Source: Ruminiclostridium papyrosolvens DSM 2782
GTDB lineage: Bacteria > Bacillota > Clostridia > Acetivibrionales > DSM-1351
Reading direction: 5' to 3'
DNA length: 64,000 nucleotides
NCBI RefSeq assembly: GCF_029318685.1
Contig: NZ_CP119677.1
Coordinates: 1 to 64,000, forward strand
Of this stretch, positions 24,844 to 31,128 are shown in pieces (the first letter of the stretch is position 1; every line of letters begins with the position of its first letter). The notes below the pieces were generated by a model that worked only from the letters and a program-made list of their open reading frames with translations, did no database searches and had not been told where the DNA came from. The position numbers and the translations under genes are program-made.

Positions 24844-25530
24844 ATGGCTAGTAAATTATCTAAGATTAATTTAAATGATTATAAACCATTGAGAGAGGTT
24901 ATTTTTAATTCATTGAGAGAGGCTATTATAATAGGTGAATTACGTCCGGGAGAGAGACTTATGGAGGTTCAGCTGGCAGAAAAAATGGGCGTCAGCAGAA
25001 CACCTGTCAGAGAGGCCATAAGAAAGCTTGAACTCGAAGGACTTGTGGATATGATTCCAAGAAAGGGCGCTCATGTTGCTGAGCTCTCTATTAAGGATAT
25101 AATGGACGTTCTTGAGGTAAGAGCATCCTTGGATGGTTTGGCTACTTCTCTGGCAGCCGAGAGAATTACAGACGACGAGTTAAAGGAATTAAAGCATATA
25201 AACGGACAATTTGCTTCCTACATCGAAAAAGAAAATCTCAACGGCTCTATAAAAAAAGATGTAGAGTTTCATGACATTATATATAAAGCATCCCGAAATG
25301 ATAAGCTGATATCAATAATAAACAATTTAAGGGAGCAGGTTCAAAGGTTCAGAGTTATATACCTTAAAGAGTATAACAATTCCAAAAATCTTATAAAAGA
25401 ACATAATGAAATATATGAGGCTGTCAGCTCCAGGTCAATGGAAAATGCAAGAAATATAGCGAAAACTCACATAATGAATCAGGAATCTACAATTCTTTCT
25501 ACTTTGAAGATGCAAAAAGGTAATAGTTAA
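24844..25530 (+). CDS. GntR-family transcriptional regulator with FCD domain
   Basis: The protein is 228 residues. The N-terminal winged helix-turn-helix includes LAEKMGVSRTPVREAIRKLE (about 40-60). The C-terminal helical FCD ligand domain (about 85-215) has the EVRASLDGLA start and metal-site histidines such as FHDIIY and KTHI. FadR-subfamily regulators respond to small organic acids or sugars; the effector is unknown here. AGGGAGG lies 8 bp before ATG 24844. The spacing suggests an operon with ispE, an arrangement that need not reflect its targets. Confidence 0.9.
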   Translation: MASKLSKINLNDYKPLREVIFNSLREAIIIGELRPGERLMEVQLAEKMGVSRTPVREAIRKLELEGLVDMIPRKGAHVAELSIKDIMDVLEVRASLDGLATSLAAERITDDELKELKHINGQFASYIEKENLNGSIKKDVEFHDIIYKASRNDKLISIINNLREQVQRFRVIYLKEYNNSKNLIKEHNEIYEAVSSRSMENARNIAKTHIMNQESTILSTLKMQKGNS

Positions 25531-25619: not shown

Positions 25620-27221
25620 ATGTGGTTCAATGAATTTTTATCGAAATACAAATCAGGTATATCTCATGAGTTTCTATTTTACTTCAATGTAAAAGATACC
25701 ATGGATAATACGAGGAATTTTTTTAGATATATAGATGATGAATTTATCAAACAGAGGAATTTTGGGATTGTAGCTTTTTACGATATTTCCAGAGGACTTA
25801 CTTTTTTGGCTCCTGAAATGGAAAGAGAATTTAATAAAATAACTGGCAATGGGGCAACGAAACTATTTTTTTCAACGCCCTCTAAAATTTTTCCATTTAT
25901 TGATATAGTATTAAAAAGTACAAAGATGGCTTTGTTTATAGACCATGCGGAGAAAATAGTACCGTCCGGTGATATCGGGAGCATGACTTTAGAAGAAAGA
26001 ATGGCGCTTATTTGGATGTCGGAATGGTCGGTTAATTCTAAAATTTCTTCAGTTGGAAGTACTATTTTTATGCTGGCGGACAACCTTGTTGACATAAGCC
26101 GCGAGTTTTTGAAATCCTCTTACAGGATAGAGCCTATTCTTGTGGAACTTCCCGGAGAAGAGGAAAGAAAAAGCTACATTGAATTTTTACTTAATGACAA
26201 AACTACTACATCTGAAATTTCTATTGATGAGTTTGCAAAGCTTTCCTCAGGTCTGAACAGGAAAAGTATAAAAGATATAAAGTTAAAGGCTGAAGCAGAG
26301 GGTGTACCTATCAGCTTTGATTTTATTAAAGAGAAAAAGCATGAGGTCTTAAAAAAGGAATACGGAGACGTTCTGGATTTTATATATCCGGAGATAGCTT
26401 TTGAAGACATTGGCGGAATGGAAGCTGCTAAAAGTTATCTTACAAAAAATATTATTGAGCCTGTCAGAAGAGGCGATTCCAGAAGAGTTCCAATGGGAAT
26501 TCTTCTTTGTGGCCCCTCCGGAACAGGAAAAACCTTATTGGTGGAAGCCTTGGCGAAATCAAGCGGATTTAATTGTGTAAAGATTGATATGTCAAGGATT
26601 TTGGGTCAGTATGTGGGAGAGAGTGAAAAGAATTTCAAAAAATGTTTGTTGGGGGCTAAGTCACAAGAGCCTGTTATAGTTTTTGTAGATGAAATAGATA
26701 CTGCCTTCAGAAGAGGAGAGTCCGGAGACAGCGGAGTGAGCAGGAATATTTTCAGTGAATTTTTACAATTCACCAGTAATACAAATAATAGGGGAAGAAT
26801 TATTTTTATTGCTGCAACAAACAGACCTGACTTACTTGATGCTGCTTTAAAAAGAGCCGGAAGGTTTGATAAAAAGATACCTGTACTACTGCCGGAAAAA
26901 GAGGAACGTGCTGAGATTTTCAGAATAATCATTAAAAAATACGGGTTTAATACTGACATTCAGGACTTTATTCCATATTCCGAATTGGCAGAAAGTTATA
27001 CGGGAGCAGAAATAGATACAGTTGTCAGGAAAGCATATGAACTTGCTTGTAACAAGACAGAGGAGCTTCCTGCAATTACAGATGATATCCTTAAAGAGGC
27101 TCTTAAAAAGTGCAGGCCAAGTACACAGGAGATAGAATTTATGACAGAGCTTGCTATTGCAGAATGTGATGATATTGATTTACTGCCTGAAAAATATTGG
27201 GCAAGGTTTGATAAGCCATAA
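25620..27221 (+). CDS. Classical AAA+ ATPase with degenerate N-terminal AAA-like domain
   Basis: The 533-residue protein has an active C-terminal AAA+ module of the FtsH/Cdc48/Vps4 class. The AAA core opens near 265 (FEDIGGMEAAKSYL). Walker A is GPSGTGKT (about 298-305), Walker B is VIVFVDEIDTAF (about 350-360), and the second region of homology is IFIAATNRPDLLDAALKRAGRFDK (about 395-418). Residues 1-230 look like a second, broken AAA domain: MALFIDHAEKIVP resembles Walker B and TIFMLADN resembles sensor 1, but no P-loop is present. Ycf46-type proteins share this plan. No protease or transmembrane part is attached. pspA follows 150 bp later. A remodelling partner for PspA is an inference from context. 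Confidence 0.85.
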   Translation: MWFNEFLSKYKSGISHEFLFYFNVKDTMDNTRNFFRYIDDEFIKQRNFGIVAFYDISRGLTFLAPEMEREFNKITGNGATKLFFSTPSKIFPFIDIVLKSTKMALFIDHAEKIVPSGDIGSMTLEERMALIWMSEWSVNSKISSVGSTIFMLADNLVDISREFLKSSYRIEPILVELPGEEERKSYIEFLLNDKTTTSEISIDEFAKLSSGLNRKSIKDIKLKAEAEGVPISFDFIKEKKHEVLKKEYGDVLDFIYPEIAFEDIGGMEAAKSYLTKNIIEPVRRGDSRRVPMGILLCGPSGTGKTLLVEALAKSSGFNCVKIDMSRILGQYVGESEKNFKKCLLGAKSQEPVIVFVDEIDTAFRRGESGDSGVSRNIFSEFLQFTSNTNNRGRIIFIAATNRPDLLDAALKRAGRFDKKIPVLLPEKEERAEIFRIIIKKYGFNTDIQDFIPYSELAESYTGAEIDTVVRKAYELACNKTEELPAITDDILKEALKKCRPSTQEIEFMTELAIAECDDIDLLPEKYWARFDKP

Positions 27222-27371
27222 GGAGTCAATAATATATGGTATTTTTAGAAATAATTATTTACATTACTGTGTTTTTATTATAAATTTAAAGTATCTTATA
27301 TATGAATCATAAATTTTATTTATAATATTGTAAAAAATAGTGTTTATATACTTTTAAGGAGGAATAGAATA

Positions 27372-28103
27372 ATGGGTTTATTTAGTAGACTGGGACAAAT
27401 GTTTAGAGGATTTTTCGGATTATTTGTTGGAAATCTGGAGGAAAGAAATCCTGATGCATTGTTCGAAGATATAAAAAACCAGATAGATAAAGCAAGACGT
27501 CAGGCAGAGCAACAAATTATTGAAATACAAACAAGTGCTGAAATGATTAAAATTGAGATGAAAACAGCTGAAAAAAATCTTAATGCCATAAAAGCAAGGG
27601 TTGAGTCTGCACAGAGGGTTGGAGACAAGGAGCTTTTGGTTGAACTTTTAGTTCAGGAAGAAGAATATCAGACTGTATATGAGACTCATAAAGCAACTTA
27701 TGAAAATGCCATGACACAGGTTCAAAAGATACGCGAAGACTACAAGATTTTTGAGTCTGAGATGAATGCGAAACTTAATGAGCTTAAAACTCTTAAATCA
27801 CAGGCAAAAATGGCTAATCTGCGCGAAAATATTAACTCTGTAAATGCACAATACACTTCAAAGAATAGCAGGGTAGGAAGTGTTAATGACAGCCTTGACA
27901 GGGCACGTGATATAGTTAACAAAAAAACTGCCAGAGCAAATGCGGTGGAATCACTTAATCAGGATAATATTGATATGAAACTTAAAAAGTTGGATATGAA
28001 TTCTGCAAGAGACAGGGCTAAAGCAAGAGCGGAAGCACTCCTTGGTGGGGATAACGGCGGTTTTGAGGTAAAAGAGAAAACAGACAACAAGATGTCAAAC
28101 TAA
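27372..28103 (+). CDS. pspA: PspA/IM30 family membrane-remodelling protein
   Basis: The 243-residue protein begins with the amphipathic helix MGLFSRLGQMFRGFFG. It continues as a long, almost purely helical coiled coil (NPDALFEDIKNQIDKARRQ, then AEKNLNAIKARVESA). This is the PspA/Vipp1 pattern, now recognised as the bacterial branch of ESCRT-III. Such proteins polymerise on stressed membranes. The C-terminus ends in a short charged tail. AAGGAGG precedes ATG 27372. Its neighbours are an AAA+ ATPase upstream and, after a GNAT gene, a membrane coiled-coil protein. No pspC or pspF is visible. Confidence 0.9.
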   Translation: MGLFSRLGQMFRGFFGLFVGNLEERNPDALFEDIKNQIDKARRQAEQQIIEIQTSAEMIKIEMKTAEKNLNAIKARVESAQRVGDKELLVELLVQEEEYQTVYETHKATYENAMTQVQKIREDYKIFESEMNAKLNELKTLKSQAKMANLRENINSVNAQYTSKNSRVGSVNDSLDRARDIVNKKTARANAVESLNQDNIDMKLKKLDMNSARDRAKARAEALLGGDNGGFEVKEKTDNKMSN

Positions 28104-28126
28104 ATTATGTATAAGGATATTACAAA

Positions 28127-28621
28127 ATGGATACACATATTAGAGAAGCAATTGAAGCGGATTTACCCAAAATAACGGATATTTACAATTGGGCGGTTGA
28201 AAACACAACTGCCTCATTTGATATAAACCCGCAAACCATAGAGCAACGAGCTGTATGGTTTTCCCATTATAAGGGCAGTCGTTTTCCTTTAATTGTATTC
28301 GTTAAAAATGAAGAGGTTGCAGGTTATGCCTGCCTATCTCAGTTCAGGGCAAAGGAAGGCTATAGAAATACATGTGAGATGTCAGTGTACGTCCATCCTG
28401 AGTATCAAAAAATGGGGATAGGCAAGAAGCTTATGGATTACGTAATAGCACTTGGGAGAGAAGCGGGGTACCATGTTATTATTTCATGTATTACTACCGA
28501 TAATATAGTAAGCATTAAAATGCATGAGGATGCAGGGTTTAAACTTTGCGGTGAATTGAAGGAGGTCGGGTATAAATTCGGAAGATACCTTGATTGCCTG
28601 TTTTACCAGCTTTCTCTATAG
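28127..28621 (+). CDS. GNAT acetyltransferase, phosphinothricin-acetyltransferase-like
   Basis: This 164-residue GNAT enzyme resembles Pat/YwnH proteins over its length: IREAIEADLPKITDIYNWAV, SVYVHPEYQKMGIGKKLMD (acetyl-CoA pyrophosphate loop Q/R-x-x-G-x-G/A as QKMGIG) and NIVSIKMHEDAGFKLCGEL. Relatives acetylate phosphinothricin, methionine sulfone or related amino-acid analogues. It starts 24 bp after pspA and ends 30 bp before a membrane coiled-coil gene, so it appears to sit inside the same transcription unit. Whether it serves the PspA system or is a passenger is unclear. Confidence 0.88.
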   Translation: MDTHIREAIEADLPKITDIYNWAVENTTASFDINPQTIEQRAVWFSHYKGSRFPLIVFVKNEEVAGYACLSQFRAKEGYRNTCEMSVYVHPEYQKMGIGKKLMDYVIALGREAGYHVIISCITTDNIVSIKMHEDAGFKLCGELKEVGYKFGRYLDCLFYQLSL

Positions 28622-28650
28622 GATTGAATTTTATGTAAGCAGAGGGAATT

Positions 28651-29478
28651 ATGAATTCAAATTTATTTGTAAGTGCACTTTTAAGATTCAGAAATTTTTC
28701 AACTTTGATTATATGGATGGCTTTAATCAATTTGATGAGCAATAATAGCCAGTTTCAAGATATGATTACAGCACAGACTGCCAATTACTCTTTGGTTATG
28801 ACAGGGGCTTATGGGGCAGGTTTTGCGGTATATCTTGCTATGGTTATACAAAGCATGTTCAGTAACAACTATAAAGAAGAAGTTAAAAGGAAAGAAAAGA
28901 AAAAAGAAATCAATGATTTGAATCGGCAGTGCAACAGACTTTCTGCCCAGGCAAGAAACTTGAGCAATCCAATTCAGAAGCAAAAATTGAGAAAGATAAT
29001 GCAGGACAAAAATGATATTTTTAATTCGCAAAAACGTGGAGACGAATACAGCTATCTTAAAGAAAAAATTGTTGAGCAGAGCTTAAAACTTGTTATTTCC
29101 TATACAAAGCTTATGACGAACTATTCAATCAGAAGCAAGGAAATATCTGAGATTAATATCAGTGACTTGATGAATAAAATCAATGCAAACCGAAGGAAAG
29201 TATGTTTTATGAAAGATGACAGGATGCTTGATGATATTAACAACATCATTGAAATGGATGAAAAGGCTATTGAAAGGGTCAAGGAGGAGAGAAACGAGCT
29301 AGAAAGAATTCACGCACGACTCGATTATATAGAAAGCATGTTGAATATGTTCAAACACCAGATAATATCCAGCATAGAATCTGAAGAAATGGTTGAAAAA
29401 TTAGAGACAGCTGTGAACGAGGCAACAGCGCTGGACAGCGTGTTACAAGAAAGAAGACGAAATCAGATAAGATTGTAA
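28651..29478 (+). CDS. Membrane-anchored coiled-coil protein downstream of pspA
   Basis: I recognise no named family. The 275-residue protein has two N-terminal hydrophobic helices (about 15-32 and 46-68). A long, highly charged coiled-coil cytoplasmic part follows (KRKEKKKEINDLNRQCNRLS through LERIHARLDYIESMLN) and runs to the C-terminus RRRNQIRL. The coiled coil is similar in character to PspA itself. AGAGGGA precedes ATG 28651. The setting (AAA+ ATPase, PspA, GNAT, then this) makes it a candidate membrane receptor or regulator for the PspA polymer; that is a hypothesis. Confidence 0.65.
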   Translation: MNSNLFVSALLRFRNFSTLIIWMALINLMSNNSQFQDMITAQTANYSLVMTGAYGAGFAVYLAMVIQSMFSNNYKEEVKRKEKKKEINDLNRQCNRLSAQARNLSNPIQKQKLRKIMQDKNDIFNSQKRGDEYSYLKEKIVEQSLKLVISYTKLMTNYSIRSKEISEINISDLMNKINANRRKVCFMKDDRMLDDINNIIEMDEKAIERVKEERNELERIHARLDYIESMLNMFKHQIISSIESEEMVEKLETAVNEATALDSVLQERRRNQIRL

Positions 29479-29550: not shown

Positions 29551-31128
29551 ATGTCAGCAAATATCACTATCTATTCTTCTCCGTACATCATAATAACAAA
29601 AAGGGATGATGGTTATTACATACAATCCTTAAAAAAAGGCTTGAGTATAGATGAATTTCAAAAATGTCTAAATTCACATCCCGAGATTAAAGTAACCAAC
29701 TTCGCCGTAATTAAAAATGCACTTGTATTGGCACCACAAGACCCCAGAAAATTTGCCAGTGCAAAGGAAAGAATAAGTATAGAAGTATCCGGAGACGAAC
29801 TTAGGGCTTACATAACCGTTAATGTGGGACCACAAGAAATTTTAGGTACTGAAATAATAAAAGAGGTAGTTCTTGAGTTAAACCGTAAAGGAGTTGTTTA
29901 TGGGATTAAAAAGGACGTGCTTTTAAGTTTGGTTGCCGGAAAAACCGTACTTATAGCCGAAGGAGAACCTCCACAGAATGGGAGTGATTCCAAAAATAGG
30001 TTATATCAAATAAAAGAAGCTAAACCTGAAATAAAAGAAGACGGTACTGCGGATCATTATGACCTTAATCTTATAAACATGGTGCAAGTAGGTGAATGGC
30101 TTGGCGAGAAAATTCACGCAACTTCGGGTAAAGAAGGCAAAACAGTATATGGAAATCCCATAAAACCTATGCCCGGAAAAGATTACCCGATTTTTTTTGA
30201 CCGTAAAACGGTAAAAGCTGTAGAAGAAGAAGGAAAGACAACTCTATATGCCATGAGGAAGGGTGCCGTTTATTTCTCGGGAGACAGTATTGGGGTATCC
30301 AATCATTTGGAGCTAAGCGACAATGTAGGTGTTAAAACAGGAAATGTTGATTTTGACGGTTACCTTACTGTCAAAGGAACAATAGAGGACAACTATATAG
30401 TTTCTACAACGAATGATATAGAAGTACTTGGCGAATACGGTGTTGGCAGTTGTAAAGAAATAAACAGCAGAGAGGGAAATATTTACATAAGAGGCGGTAT
30501 AGCAGGTAAGGGTAAAACGGTTATCAAATGCAAAAAAAATCTATACATCAAATTTGTTGCTGATGCTGAAATAATCTGTGACGGAAGTGTACATGTAGGA
30601 TTTTACTGCCTGAACAGCAATATTATTGCAAAGGAAGTAATACTGGAATCACTAAAGGGCCAGATTATCGGAGGAAATATAACTGCAGATATCAGAGTGC
30701 TTGCAGCTACATATGGTACTCCAAGTGAAAAAAGAACAAATATTTATGTAAAAGGATTTGACAGGGTTGCACTTAAAGATTCCCTTGACAATCTTACAGA
30801 GGAAATAGAACAACTTAAAATTTCAATGAACCAGTACAAACAGCAAATATCCATTTTTAACATATCTGATGCAGGAAAATCAAGAAAAAGTGAGTTTGAG
30901 AAGCTAAATGAAGTATATAACAACATAAGAGCGGAATTGCAAGCGAAGGAGGAAACCAGAAAGAATATCGCAGGATATCTGAAGGTCAAGGGAGAGGGAG
31001 AAATTACAATTCTTAAGAAGGCATTTCCTAACACATATTTTGAAATTAAGAGAATCCAGAAGGAAATTCAAACACCTGTACTTAGAACAAGCTTTTACTA
31101 TAGCGAGGGCACAATAAAAGAACTATAA
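29551..31128 (+). CDS. FapA/DUF342-family polymer-forming domain protein
   Basis: The 525-residue protein has the DUF342 (flagellar assembly protein A) core. An N-terminal region of about 170 residues comes first, then a right-handed beta-helix-like stretch (about 200-390, with repeats such as VDFDGYLTVKGTIEDNYIV and ESLKGQIIGGNITADIRVLA). A coiled coil (about 410-475) follows, and a final RIQKEIQTPVLRTSF. Vibrio FapA affects flagellar pole assembly; Firmicutes members are mostly uncharacterised. GGGGGA sits 9 bp before ATG 29551. It lies 72 bp after the coiled-coil gene and 47 bp before the GAF gene. Confidence 0.8.
   Translation: MSANITIYSSPYIIITKRDDGYYIQSLKKGLSIDEFQKCLNSHPEIKVTNFAVIKNALVLAPQDPRKFASAKERISIEVSGDELRAYITVNVGPQEILGTEIIKEVVLELNRKGVVYGIKKDVLLSLVAGKTVLIAEGEPPQNGSDSKNRLYQIKEAKPEIKEDGTADHYDLNLINMVQVGEWLGEKIHATSGKEGKTVYGNPIKPMPGKDYPIFFDRKTVKAVEEEGKTTLYAMRKGAVYFSGDSIGVSNHLELSDNVGVKTGNVDFDGYLTVKGTIEDNYIVSTTNDIEVLGEYGVGSCKEINSREGNIYIRGGIAGKGKTVIKCKKNLYIKFVADAEIICDGSVHVGFYCLNSNIIAKEVILESLKGQIIGGNITADIRVLAATYGTPSEKRTNIYVKGFDRVALKDSLDNLTEEIEQLKISMNQYKQQISIFNISDAGKSRKSEFEKLNEVYNNIRAELQAKEETRKNIAGYLKVKGEGEITILKKAFPNTYFEIKRIQKEIQTPVLRTSFYYSEGTIKEL

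Follow-up and report, generated by a model that had tools for sequence, protein, structure and literature searches.

A tandem-AAA ATPase, PspA and membrane coiled-coil gene set of Ruminiclostridium papyrosolvens as a candidate bacterial ESCRT-III-type remodelling unit

ESCRT-III proteins, which cut membranes in human cells, carry C-terminal MIM motifs to which Vps4 binds, and Vps4 threads their subunits through its pore. The bacterial protein PspA serves in membrane repair. PspA and Vipp1 were placed in the ESCRT-III superfamily by Liu et al., who, in the portion of their paper available, leave the question of an equivalent ATPase open (PMC8281802), and bacteria are described as without a clear Vps4 homologue in the accessible part of a review (PMC7615534). 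For the chloroplast protein VIPP1, rods are disassembled with ATP by HSP70B, CDJ2 and CGE1, according to the sections at hand of PMC6882379. In bacteria, the available text of Ravi et al. 2024 in mSystems (PMC11237479) reports that PspA, e.g. AEY64321.1, occasionally lies beside a two-AAA protein with an inactive N-terminal AAA, places the ATPase, ABC and PBP-OmpA proteins in the company of PspA and of “Snf7 homologs with a TM segment” (TM, transmembrane), and likewise infers ATP-dependent membrane remodelling. Here we analysed a locus of this kind (positions 25,620 to 29,478) in a window of 64,000 nucleotides, the whole stretch of DNA under study, from R. papyrosolvens DSM 2782 (contig NZ_CP119677.1); the locus encodes a tandem-AAA ATPase, a divergent PspA and a membrane coiled-coil protein (MCC). 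AEY64321.1 presumably comes from a genome close to that of DSM 2782. The three-gene set is real, conserved and partly known, and a Vps4-like role is predicted for it from sequence and by analogy.

The ATPase, PspA and MCC genes are conserved together far beyond the genus, more than expected by chance. In a sample of 148 near-relative genomes, that of the window included, an ATPase orthologue (E 1e-164 or better) was found in 59, comprising all 11 of the genus, 42 of the 47 others of the order and 6 of the remaining 90 of the class. MCC was detected in 57 of these 59 genomes and in none of the 89 others (Fisher’s test, 4e-39, related genomes not being independent), the two misses (G018 and G019) having contigs that end inside the unit. 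Of the 59, 58 also had a match to the PspA family PF04012, as did 11 of the 89. In 56 of the 59 loci the ATPase is followed, after a gap of 73–441 bases, by a PspA gene of the same strand, and MCC comes after PspA in 55. Loci missing PspA or MCC are cut by contig ends (L052, L062) or have PspA and MCC together on a different contig from the ATPase, as in G059 (L084/L110) and G113 (L087/L109).

The ATPase carries neither a protease nor a TM part. Its one complete AAA domain lies in the C-terminal half, where alone PF00004 matched (residues 294–422, E 6.3e-39 in a Pfam scan), and contains the Walker A, Walker B and second region of homology of a classical AAA protein, with motifs nearly invariant across orthologues. 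We take the pore loop QYVGESE to be of the aromatic, threading type, and the RAGRFDKK region presumably holds the arginine fingers. In the 58 alignment rows of at least 515 amino acids (aa), GxxGxGK[TS] was present in every C-terminal half and in no N-terminal half, a lone GKT counted in the latter being the true Walker A of the N-truncated row L085. In the PDB, a profile of the first 250 aa matched AAA domains of p97/Cdc48 (E 5e-5 at best), mostly over residues 90–240. The structure model (mean predicted local distance difference test score, pLDDT, 74.9; predicted template modelling score, pTM, 0.59) superposed on D1+D2 of p97, Rix7, Drg1 and NVL with Z of about 15–16 and root-mean-square deviations of 5.5–13.5 Å, a Z that does not by itself prove a first AAA domain because single-domain chains such as Vps4 reach equal Z over the active domain alone. 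The degenerate N-terminal AAA-like domain of the preliminary description is borne out by the missing Walker A, the profile match and the model, and sequence and model together make the ATPase most likely a tandem AAA protein whose first ring is dead, a view shared by Ravi et al. in the text available (PMC11237479). Placing it in the Vps4/CdvC or the Cdc48 family was considered and rejected, as scores were far under cut-off for the curated CdvC (138.3 vs 650 bits needed) and CDC48 families (159.6 vs 802.65 bits), a Pfam scan extended to E 1 matched no MIT family, the first 250 aa being the degenerate AAA copy, and Cdc48/p97 has two ATP-binding AAA domains whereas the first copy here has no Walker A in any of the 58 rows. 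Of the FtsH/Cdc48/Vps4-class assignment made earlier, the classical AAA protein without protease or membrane part therefore stands and membership in either family does not. In family f40 (L086, L088), which has the three-gene unit, the ATPase contains a low-complexity insert at columns 528–577 of alignment A1.

The window PspA is the sole PF04012 match in its genome at E 0.001 and belongs to a divergent branch; it scores 43.8 bits, over the cut-off of 33.9 bits, and ATPase-linked relatives reached 29 to 47 bits, several orthologues being just under the cut-off, vs 124 to 184 for nine strong unlinked PspAs. The N-terminal amphipathic start is retained. At the C-terminus, a flexible-looking tail with the motif GFEV[KR]E[KR] occurred in all 54 complete Clostridia rows, the truncated rows L056 and L062 being excluded, and, by eye, in the PspAs of L109 and L110; it was not seen, also by eye, in eight PspAs of the class without an adjoining ATPase. 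The motif is repeated in tandem in L083 (three copies) and L071 (two copies), as expected of a short docking motif. In Armatimonadota and L138/L139, all 14 PspAs whose locus contains the ATPase had a [RK]TM tail and none of the nine from loci without it did, one more being cut by a contig end. Eight further ATPase-linked PspAs from a fresh set of 20 loci showed [RK]TM in six cases, RTL in one and KEM in one; RTL is also the tail in L146 and L172, and the GRVVKE[RK] tails of L122 and L132 correspond to part of the Clostridia motif. A PspA tree, which like the second general PspA profile omits L097 (an open reading frame in the wrong frame that was present in the first profile), gave separate groups for the ATPase-linked rows of Clostridia/Bacillota, those of Armatimonadota, the rows linked to the J-like proteins described below and the unlinked Clostridia rows. 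Its deep order is not resolved, so that one or several origins of the ATPase link are both possible.

The MCC model (mean pLDDT 87) opens at the N-terminus with a pair of hydrophobic helices and continues as a long helical part. By plain hydropathy, just the second of the pair exceeds the threshold used in the window protein. Mean lysine/arginine counts over 55 rows were 3.0 before TM1, 0.4 between the helices and 3.7 after TM2, a sequence pattern that fits a protein with both ends inside the cell. The preliminary description had proposed a two-helix membrane protein with a PspA-like coiled coil; the TM hairpin and helical remainder were recovered, and kinship with PspA was not, the two profiles giving 0.1% in hhalign, so that “PspA-like” denotes a resemblance only. 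No Pfam or NCBIfam family matched the window MCC over its cut-off. A Pfam scan of 38 MCC members matched 51 families, of which DUF7260 was the commonest (12 matches with E of 0.1 or less, the best being 8.8e-6) and Snf7 was not among the 25 listed, and no NCBIfam family matched more than three of the MCC relatives scanned. A fold search in the PDB found nothing within an E of 0.001; in a second search, designed helical bundles appeared along with various helical proteins (Z up to 16.5), which are read as common helical packing, and ESCRT-III chains were not among the matches listed, which excludes nothing. Profile comparison indicates that MCC is homologous to the membrane protein beside PspA in Armatimonadota, a 24-member TM coiled-coil set aligning with it at an hhalign probability of 96.8% (E 2.1e-10, 240 columns, near full length) and with its cytosolic part alone at 93.7%. 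Controls remained low (reversed 1.1 and 0.1%, column-shuffled at most 0.3%, PspA as above), and the 24-member set gave 4.1% with PspA. Profile A6, made from the TM coiled-coil proteins adjoining PspA or the ATPase in L138, L139, L144 and L148, gave 92.9% with MCC. Second MCC copies away from the unit were present in 12 of 57 genomes (one only a weak match). Such paralogues apart from PspA (L101–L108, L111) have MinD-like, minE, mgsA, M23 or M50 genes nearby (scanned in L105) or stand next to an NMT1-OmpA protein, as scanned in L108, the latter comparable to the PBP-OmpA operons in the accessible text of PMC11237479. Separately, at L246:31-1482 (genome titled Oscillochloris), the MCC relative comes after a protein that has solute-binding and VWA domains.

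The pairing of ATPase and PspA extends beyond Clostridia. Among 398 genomes of the phylum, 11 matched the profile of the ATPase N-terminal domain, the four strong matches being in the window genome, in G487, where PspA adjoins, and in G482 and G204 (no PspA; surroundings phage-like by eye). At least 80 ATPase loci were obtained when 84,980 species genomes were scanned, at least 14 of them with PspA in the fetched stretch, and, judged by titles and kinship, at least eight ATPase–PspA loci lie outside Clostridia (L132, L138, L139, L145, L146, L148, L151 and L172). The gene order is AAA-PspA in L122 and L132, PspA-MCC relative-gene-AAA in L138/L139, MCC relative-PspA-AAA in L145/L148 and PspA-AAA in L146, L151 and L172. 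These PspAs passed the Pfam cut-off in L138, L146, L148 and L172 and were re-found by the second PspA profile in L138, L139, L145 and L148; that of L132 was under the cut-off (30.4 vs 33.9 bits, E 3.8e-7), and that of L151 was assigned by two profiles only. In the phylum of L148, Armatimonadota, profile A6 matched 52 of 251 genomes. The 33 MCC-relative loci examined (the best 30 of the 52 matching genomes and three others) included 24 with PspA, 15 with the ATPase and eight with neither; PspA was present in 21 of 29 once the four seed loci were excluded. The ATPase, in some cases partial, was found in 37 of the 251 genomes, with PspA in 36 of these vs 150 of the 214 others (p 9e-5). The co-occurrence reaches across an order of Clostridia, another Bacillota lineage and other phyla, with the membrane protein recurring beside PspA, so that the restriction to the genus which the preliminary description named as a refutation is not what was observed. 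The ATPase–PspA pair either goes back to a distant ancestor or was assembled on several occasions. Tandem-AAA relatives without an adjoining PspA were also seen, namely L123, L124, L137 and L142, the first three in surroundings that appear phage-like by eye and with DUF3150 matches as the next gene in L123, L137 (weak, under cut-off) and L142. A second Armatimonadota tandem-AAA group (L268, L269, L271–L275, L277 and L278; profile A7, E 1e-151 to 1e-165) has no PspA in the fetched stretch.

The reading best supported by the linkage and the motor motifs, and one that we hold to be somewhat probable, is a bacterial ESCRT-III-type remodelling unit in which a PspA polymer has a membrane partner and its own ATPase, working like Vps4 without belonging to the Vps4 family. 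The module proposed in the preliminary description is retained in this form, shorn of Vps4 family membership and of MCC–PspA kinship. By analogy with Vps4 and with VIPP1 disassembly, from which all these roles are assigned, PspA would polymerise on the inner membrane, with MCC, through its TM hairpin and cytosolic coiled coil, as a possible membrane partner or nucleation site. The ATPase would form a hexamer whose inactive N-terminal AAA ring serves as a docking platform and recognises PspA by the GFEVKEK tail as a handle, and the active ring would thread PspA subunits through its pore. The PspA lattice would in this way be taken apart, recycled or reshaped, as ESCRT-III is by Vps4, disassembly being the direction that we infer for the reaction.

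Armatimonadota loci without the ATPase add a second kind of neighbour. A small J-like (DnaJ-related) protein adjoins PspA and MCC in eight of the nine such loci examined (L252, L253, L255, L256, L258, L261, L263 and L264) and was found in none of 14 ATPase–PspA loci, wide flanks having been fetched for only eight of the latter. Alongside the ATP-driven disassembly of VIPP1 rods, this neighbour is counted in favour of the remodelling reading. In the 11 genomes concerned (nine with PspA–MCC and no ATPase, two with an MCC relative and a J-like protein), the ATPase profile at 1e-40 retrieved nothing or the active domain alone. These observations allow the tentative suggestion, which we regard as possible and no more, that PspA and a coiled-coil protein with a membrane hairpin form a core served by exchangeable ATP-driven disassembly machines, either a tail-reading tandem-AAA motor or a J-like link to Hsp70, and that the PspA tail would be a functional MIM analogue written in different letters in Bacillota and Armatimonadota. 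Pfam DnaJ matched the five J-like proteins scanned (E 1e-9 to 9e-3). Since just two of the five passed the DnaJ cut-off and HPD is missing in nine of ten J-like loci, being present only in L252, Hsp70 recruitment is doubtful; on account of the missing HPD the label is kept at J-like rather than J-domain. J-like proteins also lie beside an MCC relative alone in L257, where dnaK is near, and in L262.

Several observations weigh against a fixed three-gene unit with a tail-reading motor. Many ATPase relatives have no PspA or MCC next door: no PspA was found in the stretch fetched for 12 of 20 further ATPase loci of one phylum, some of them cut short by a contig end, an MCC relative was found in none of the 20, eight of which do have PspA, nor was one found beside the ATPase–PspA pair in L122 or L132, and some ATPase loci have DUF3150 partners in surroundings that look phage-like by eye. 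Individually, just six of the 24 Armatimonadota MCC relatives matched the Clostridia MCC profile at E <1e-3 (in the reverse direction, 52 of 55 MCCs matched the profile of the 24). The Clostridia tail motif is unlike that of Armatimonadota, and the tail of L151 matches neither. Tail motifs may also be marks of clades, given that rows of the same group do not count independently and that the PspA tree has the limits described above.

Three other explanations were weighed. PspA could be a regulator or adaptor of the ATPase and not its substrate, the ATPase acting on other membrane-linked proteins such as MCC or stress regulators. PspA is established as an inhibitor of the AAA protein PspF in E. 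coli, and the occurrence of the ATPase without PspA nearby is in keeping with such a role; nonetheless, the aromatic pore loop and the invariant, flexible-looking PspA tail that accompanies the ATPase argue for a substrate, and MCC was not seen in several ATPase–PspA loci and is therefore not a universal substrate of the ATPase, so that we consider this explanation rather unlikely while granting it some weight. It is still less probable that the ATPase is a general unfoldase or quality-control chaperone of membrane stress, expressed together with PspA but making no contact with it. Gene neighbourhood can show no more than shared regulation, and the further neighbours vary between phyla, yet the ATPase and PspA adjoin in several phyla with changed order and the presence of MCC tracks that of the ATPase almost perfectly in Clostridia. 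Frozen gene order among related genomes, with no functional unit, is nearly excluded: flanking genes are partly conserved as well (in 44 loci outside the genus IspE in 35, GntR in 33, AcpS in 23 and FapA in 15), but they are lost more often than AAA-PspA-MCC, genomes lack the ATPase and MCC together, and the ATPase–PspA pair in other phyla and other orders leaves frozen synteny as no explanation.

The coordinates of the locus are collected in Table 1. The genome is a single contig of 5.03 Mb, the chromosome of a member of Clostridia, and the window has a low guanine-cytosine content (30–39% in 4-kb steps). Four plus-strand genes, for the AAA protein, PspA, a GNAT acetyltransferase and MCC, lie between a GntR-type regulator and FapA; all open reading frames named in the preliminary description are present, with the ATPase directly upstream of pspA. 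The GNAT gene separates PspA and MCC in all 11 loci of the genus and was found in only five of the 44 others, so that it was ruled out as a member of the unit and is regarded as a passenger. The window GNAT is closest to models of the arsinothricin N-acetyltransferase ArsN1, below their cut-offs (121 vs 210 bits). Scans of the window for promoters (30 vs 23.4 expected, standard deviation 5.0) and terminator-like sites (seven vs 3.0 expected, standard deviation 1.9) were not used.

Table 1. Features of the ATPase–PspA–MCC locus and its flanks, in window positions.
Feature	Position	Strand	Basis or remark
GntR-type regulator	24844-25530		Upstream flank; named by eye
Tandem-AAA ATPase, 533 aa	25620-27221	+	Orthologues in 59/148 relatives, own genome included
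Degenerate AAA copy, residues 1-252, proposed docking part	25620-26375	+	Walker A absent in 58/58 rows; weak p97/Cdc48 profile match
Walker A GPSGTGKT, active AAA domain	26511-26534	+	Sequence; invariant in 23/23 rows
Pore loop 1 QYVGESE	26607-26627	+	QYVGES in 57/59 rows
Walker B VFVDEID	26679-26699	+	VDEID in 57/58 rows of at least 515 aa
Second region of homology RAGRFDKK	26853-26876	+	58/59 rows
AAGGAGG, likely ribosome-binding site of pspA	27356-27362	+	Sequence
Divergent PspA/IM30, 243 aa	27372-28103	+	PF04012, 43.8 bits; downstream of ATPase in 56/59 loci
PspA N-terminal amphipathic helix (alpha0; role by analogy)	27372-27431	+	Conserved MG[LF][FL].R...RGFF-like start
PspA C-terminal tail GFEVKEK, proposed docking motif	28059-28079	+	GFEV[KR]E[KR] in 54/54 complete rows
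GNAT acetyltransferase, passenger gene	28127-28621	+	5/44 loci outside genus
MCC, 275 aa: N-terminal TM hairpin and cytosolic helical/coiled-coil part	28651-29478	+	
MCC TM hairpin, model helices 13-31 and 46-70	28687-28860	+	Model; charge pattern over 55 rows
FapA protein	29551-31128		Downstream flank

The operon supplies a candidate motor, a seven-residue candidate docking tail and a membrane partner for bacterial ESCRT-III, and with these named the question of a dedicated disassembly motor becomes directly testable with purified proteins. An earlier report linking PspA with AAA ATPases, mentioned in the preliminary description, does exist in PMC11237479, and as far as its accessible text goes the novelty claimed for the partner and the shared unit is reduced, the ATPase–PspA pair being in print and MCC perhaps covered by the “Snf7 homologs with a TM segment”. 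The available text of PMC11237479 describes no tail motif, and its main text has no mention of “DnaJ” or “Hsp70”. Within the portions available of the open-licence PMC literature found, the tail motifs, the cross-phylum MCC family and the J-like alternative were not described. The present analysis thus adds MCC as a recurrent partner, the tail motifs and the J-like alternative.

Compared with known systems, the locus shares with ESCRT-III/Vps4 and archaeal CdvB/CdvC a gene for an ESCRT-III-superfamily polymer beside that of a classical AAA ATPase, and a short C-terminal docking candidate on the polymer protein, recalling the MIM. It differs from both in that the ATPase is a tandem AAA protein with a dead N-terminal copy and no MIT domain, and in having PspA in place of Snf7 or CdvB, together with a membrane hairpin partner. 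The model of the ATPase superposes on D1+D2 as in Cdc48/p97 and Rix7, unlike which its first AAA copy is without Walker A. With the chloroplast VIPP1–HSP70B–CDJ2–CGE1 system, as described in the sections at hand of PMC6882379, it has in common the pairing of a PspA-family polymer with an ATP-driven machine, rods having been seen disassembled there and genes alone here; the machine here is an AAA motor, and the J-like proteins of Armatimonadota are without HPD in nine of ten loci. The gene pair of PspA and a double-AAA protein with an inactive N-terminal copy is the same as that of Ravi et al. in the available text (PMC11237479).

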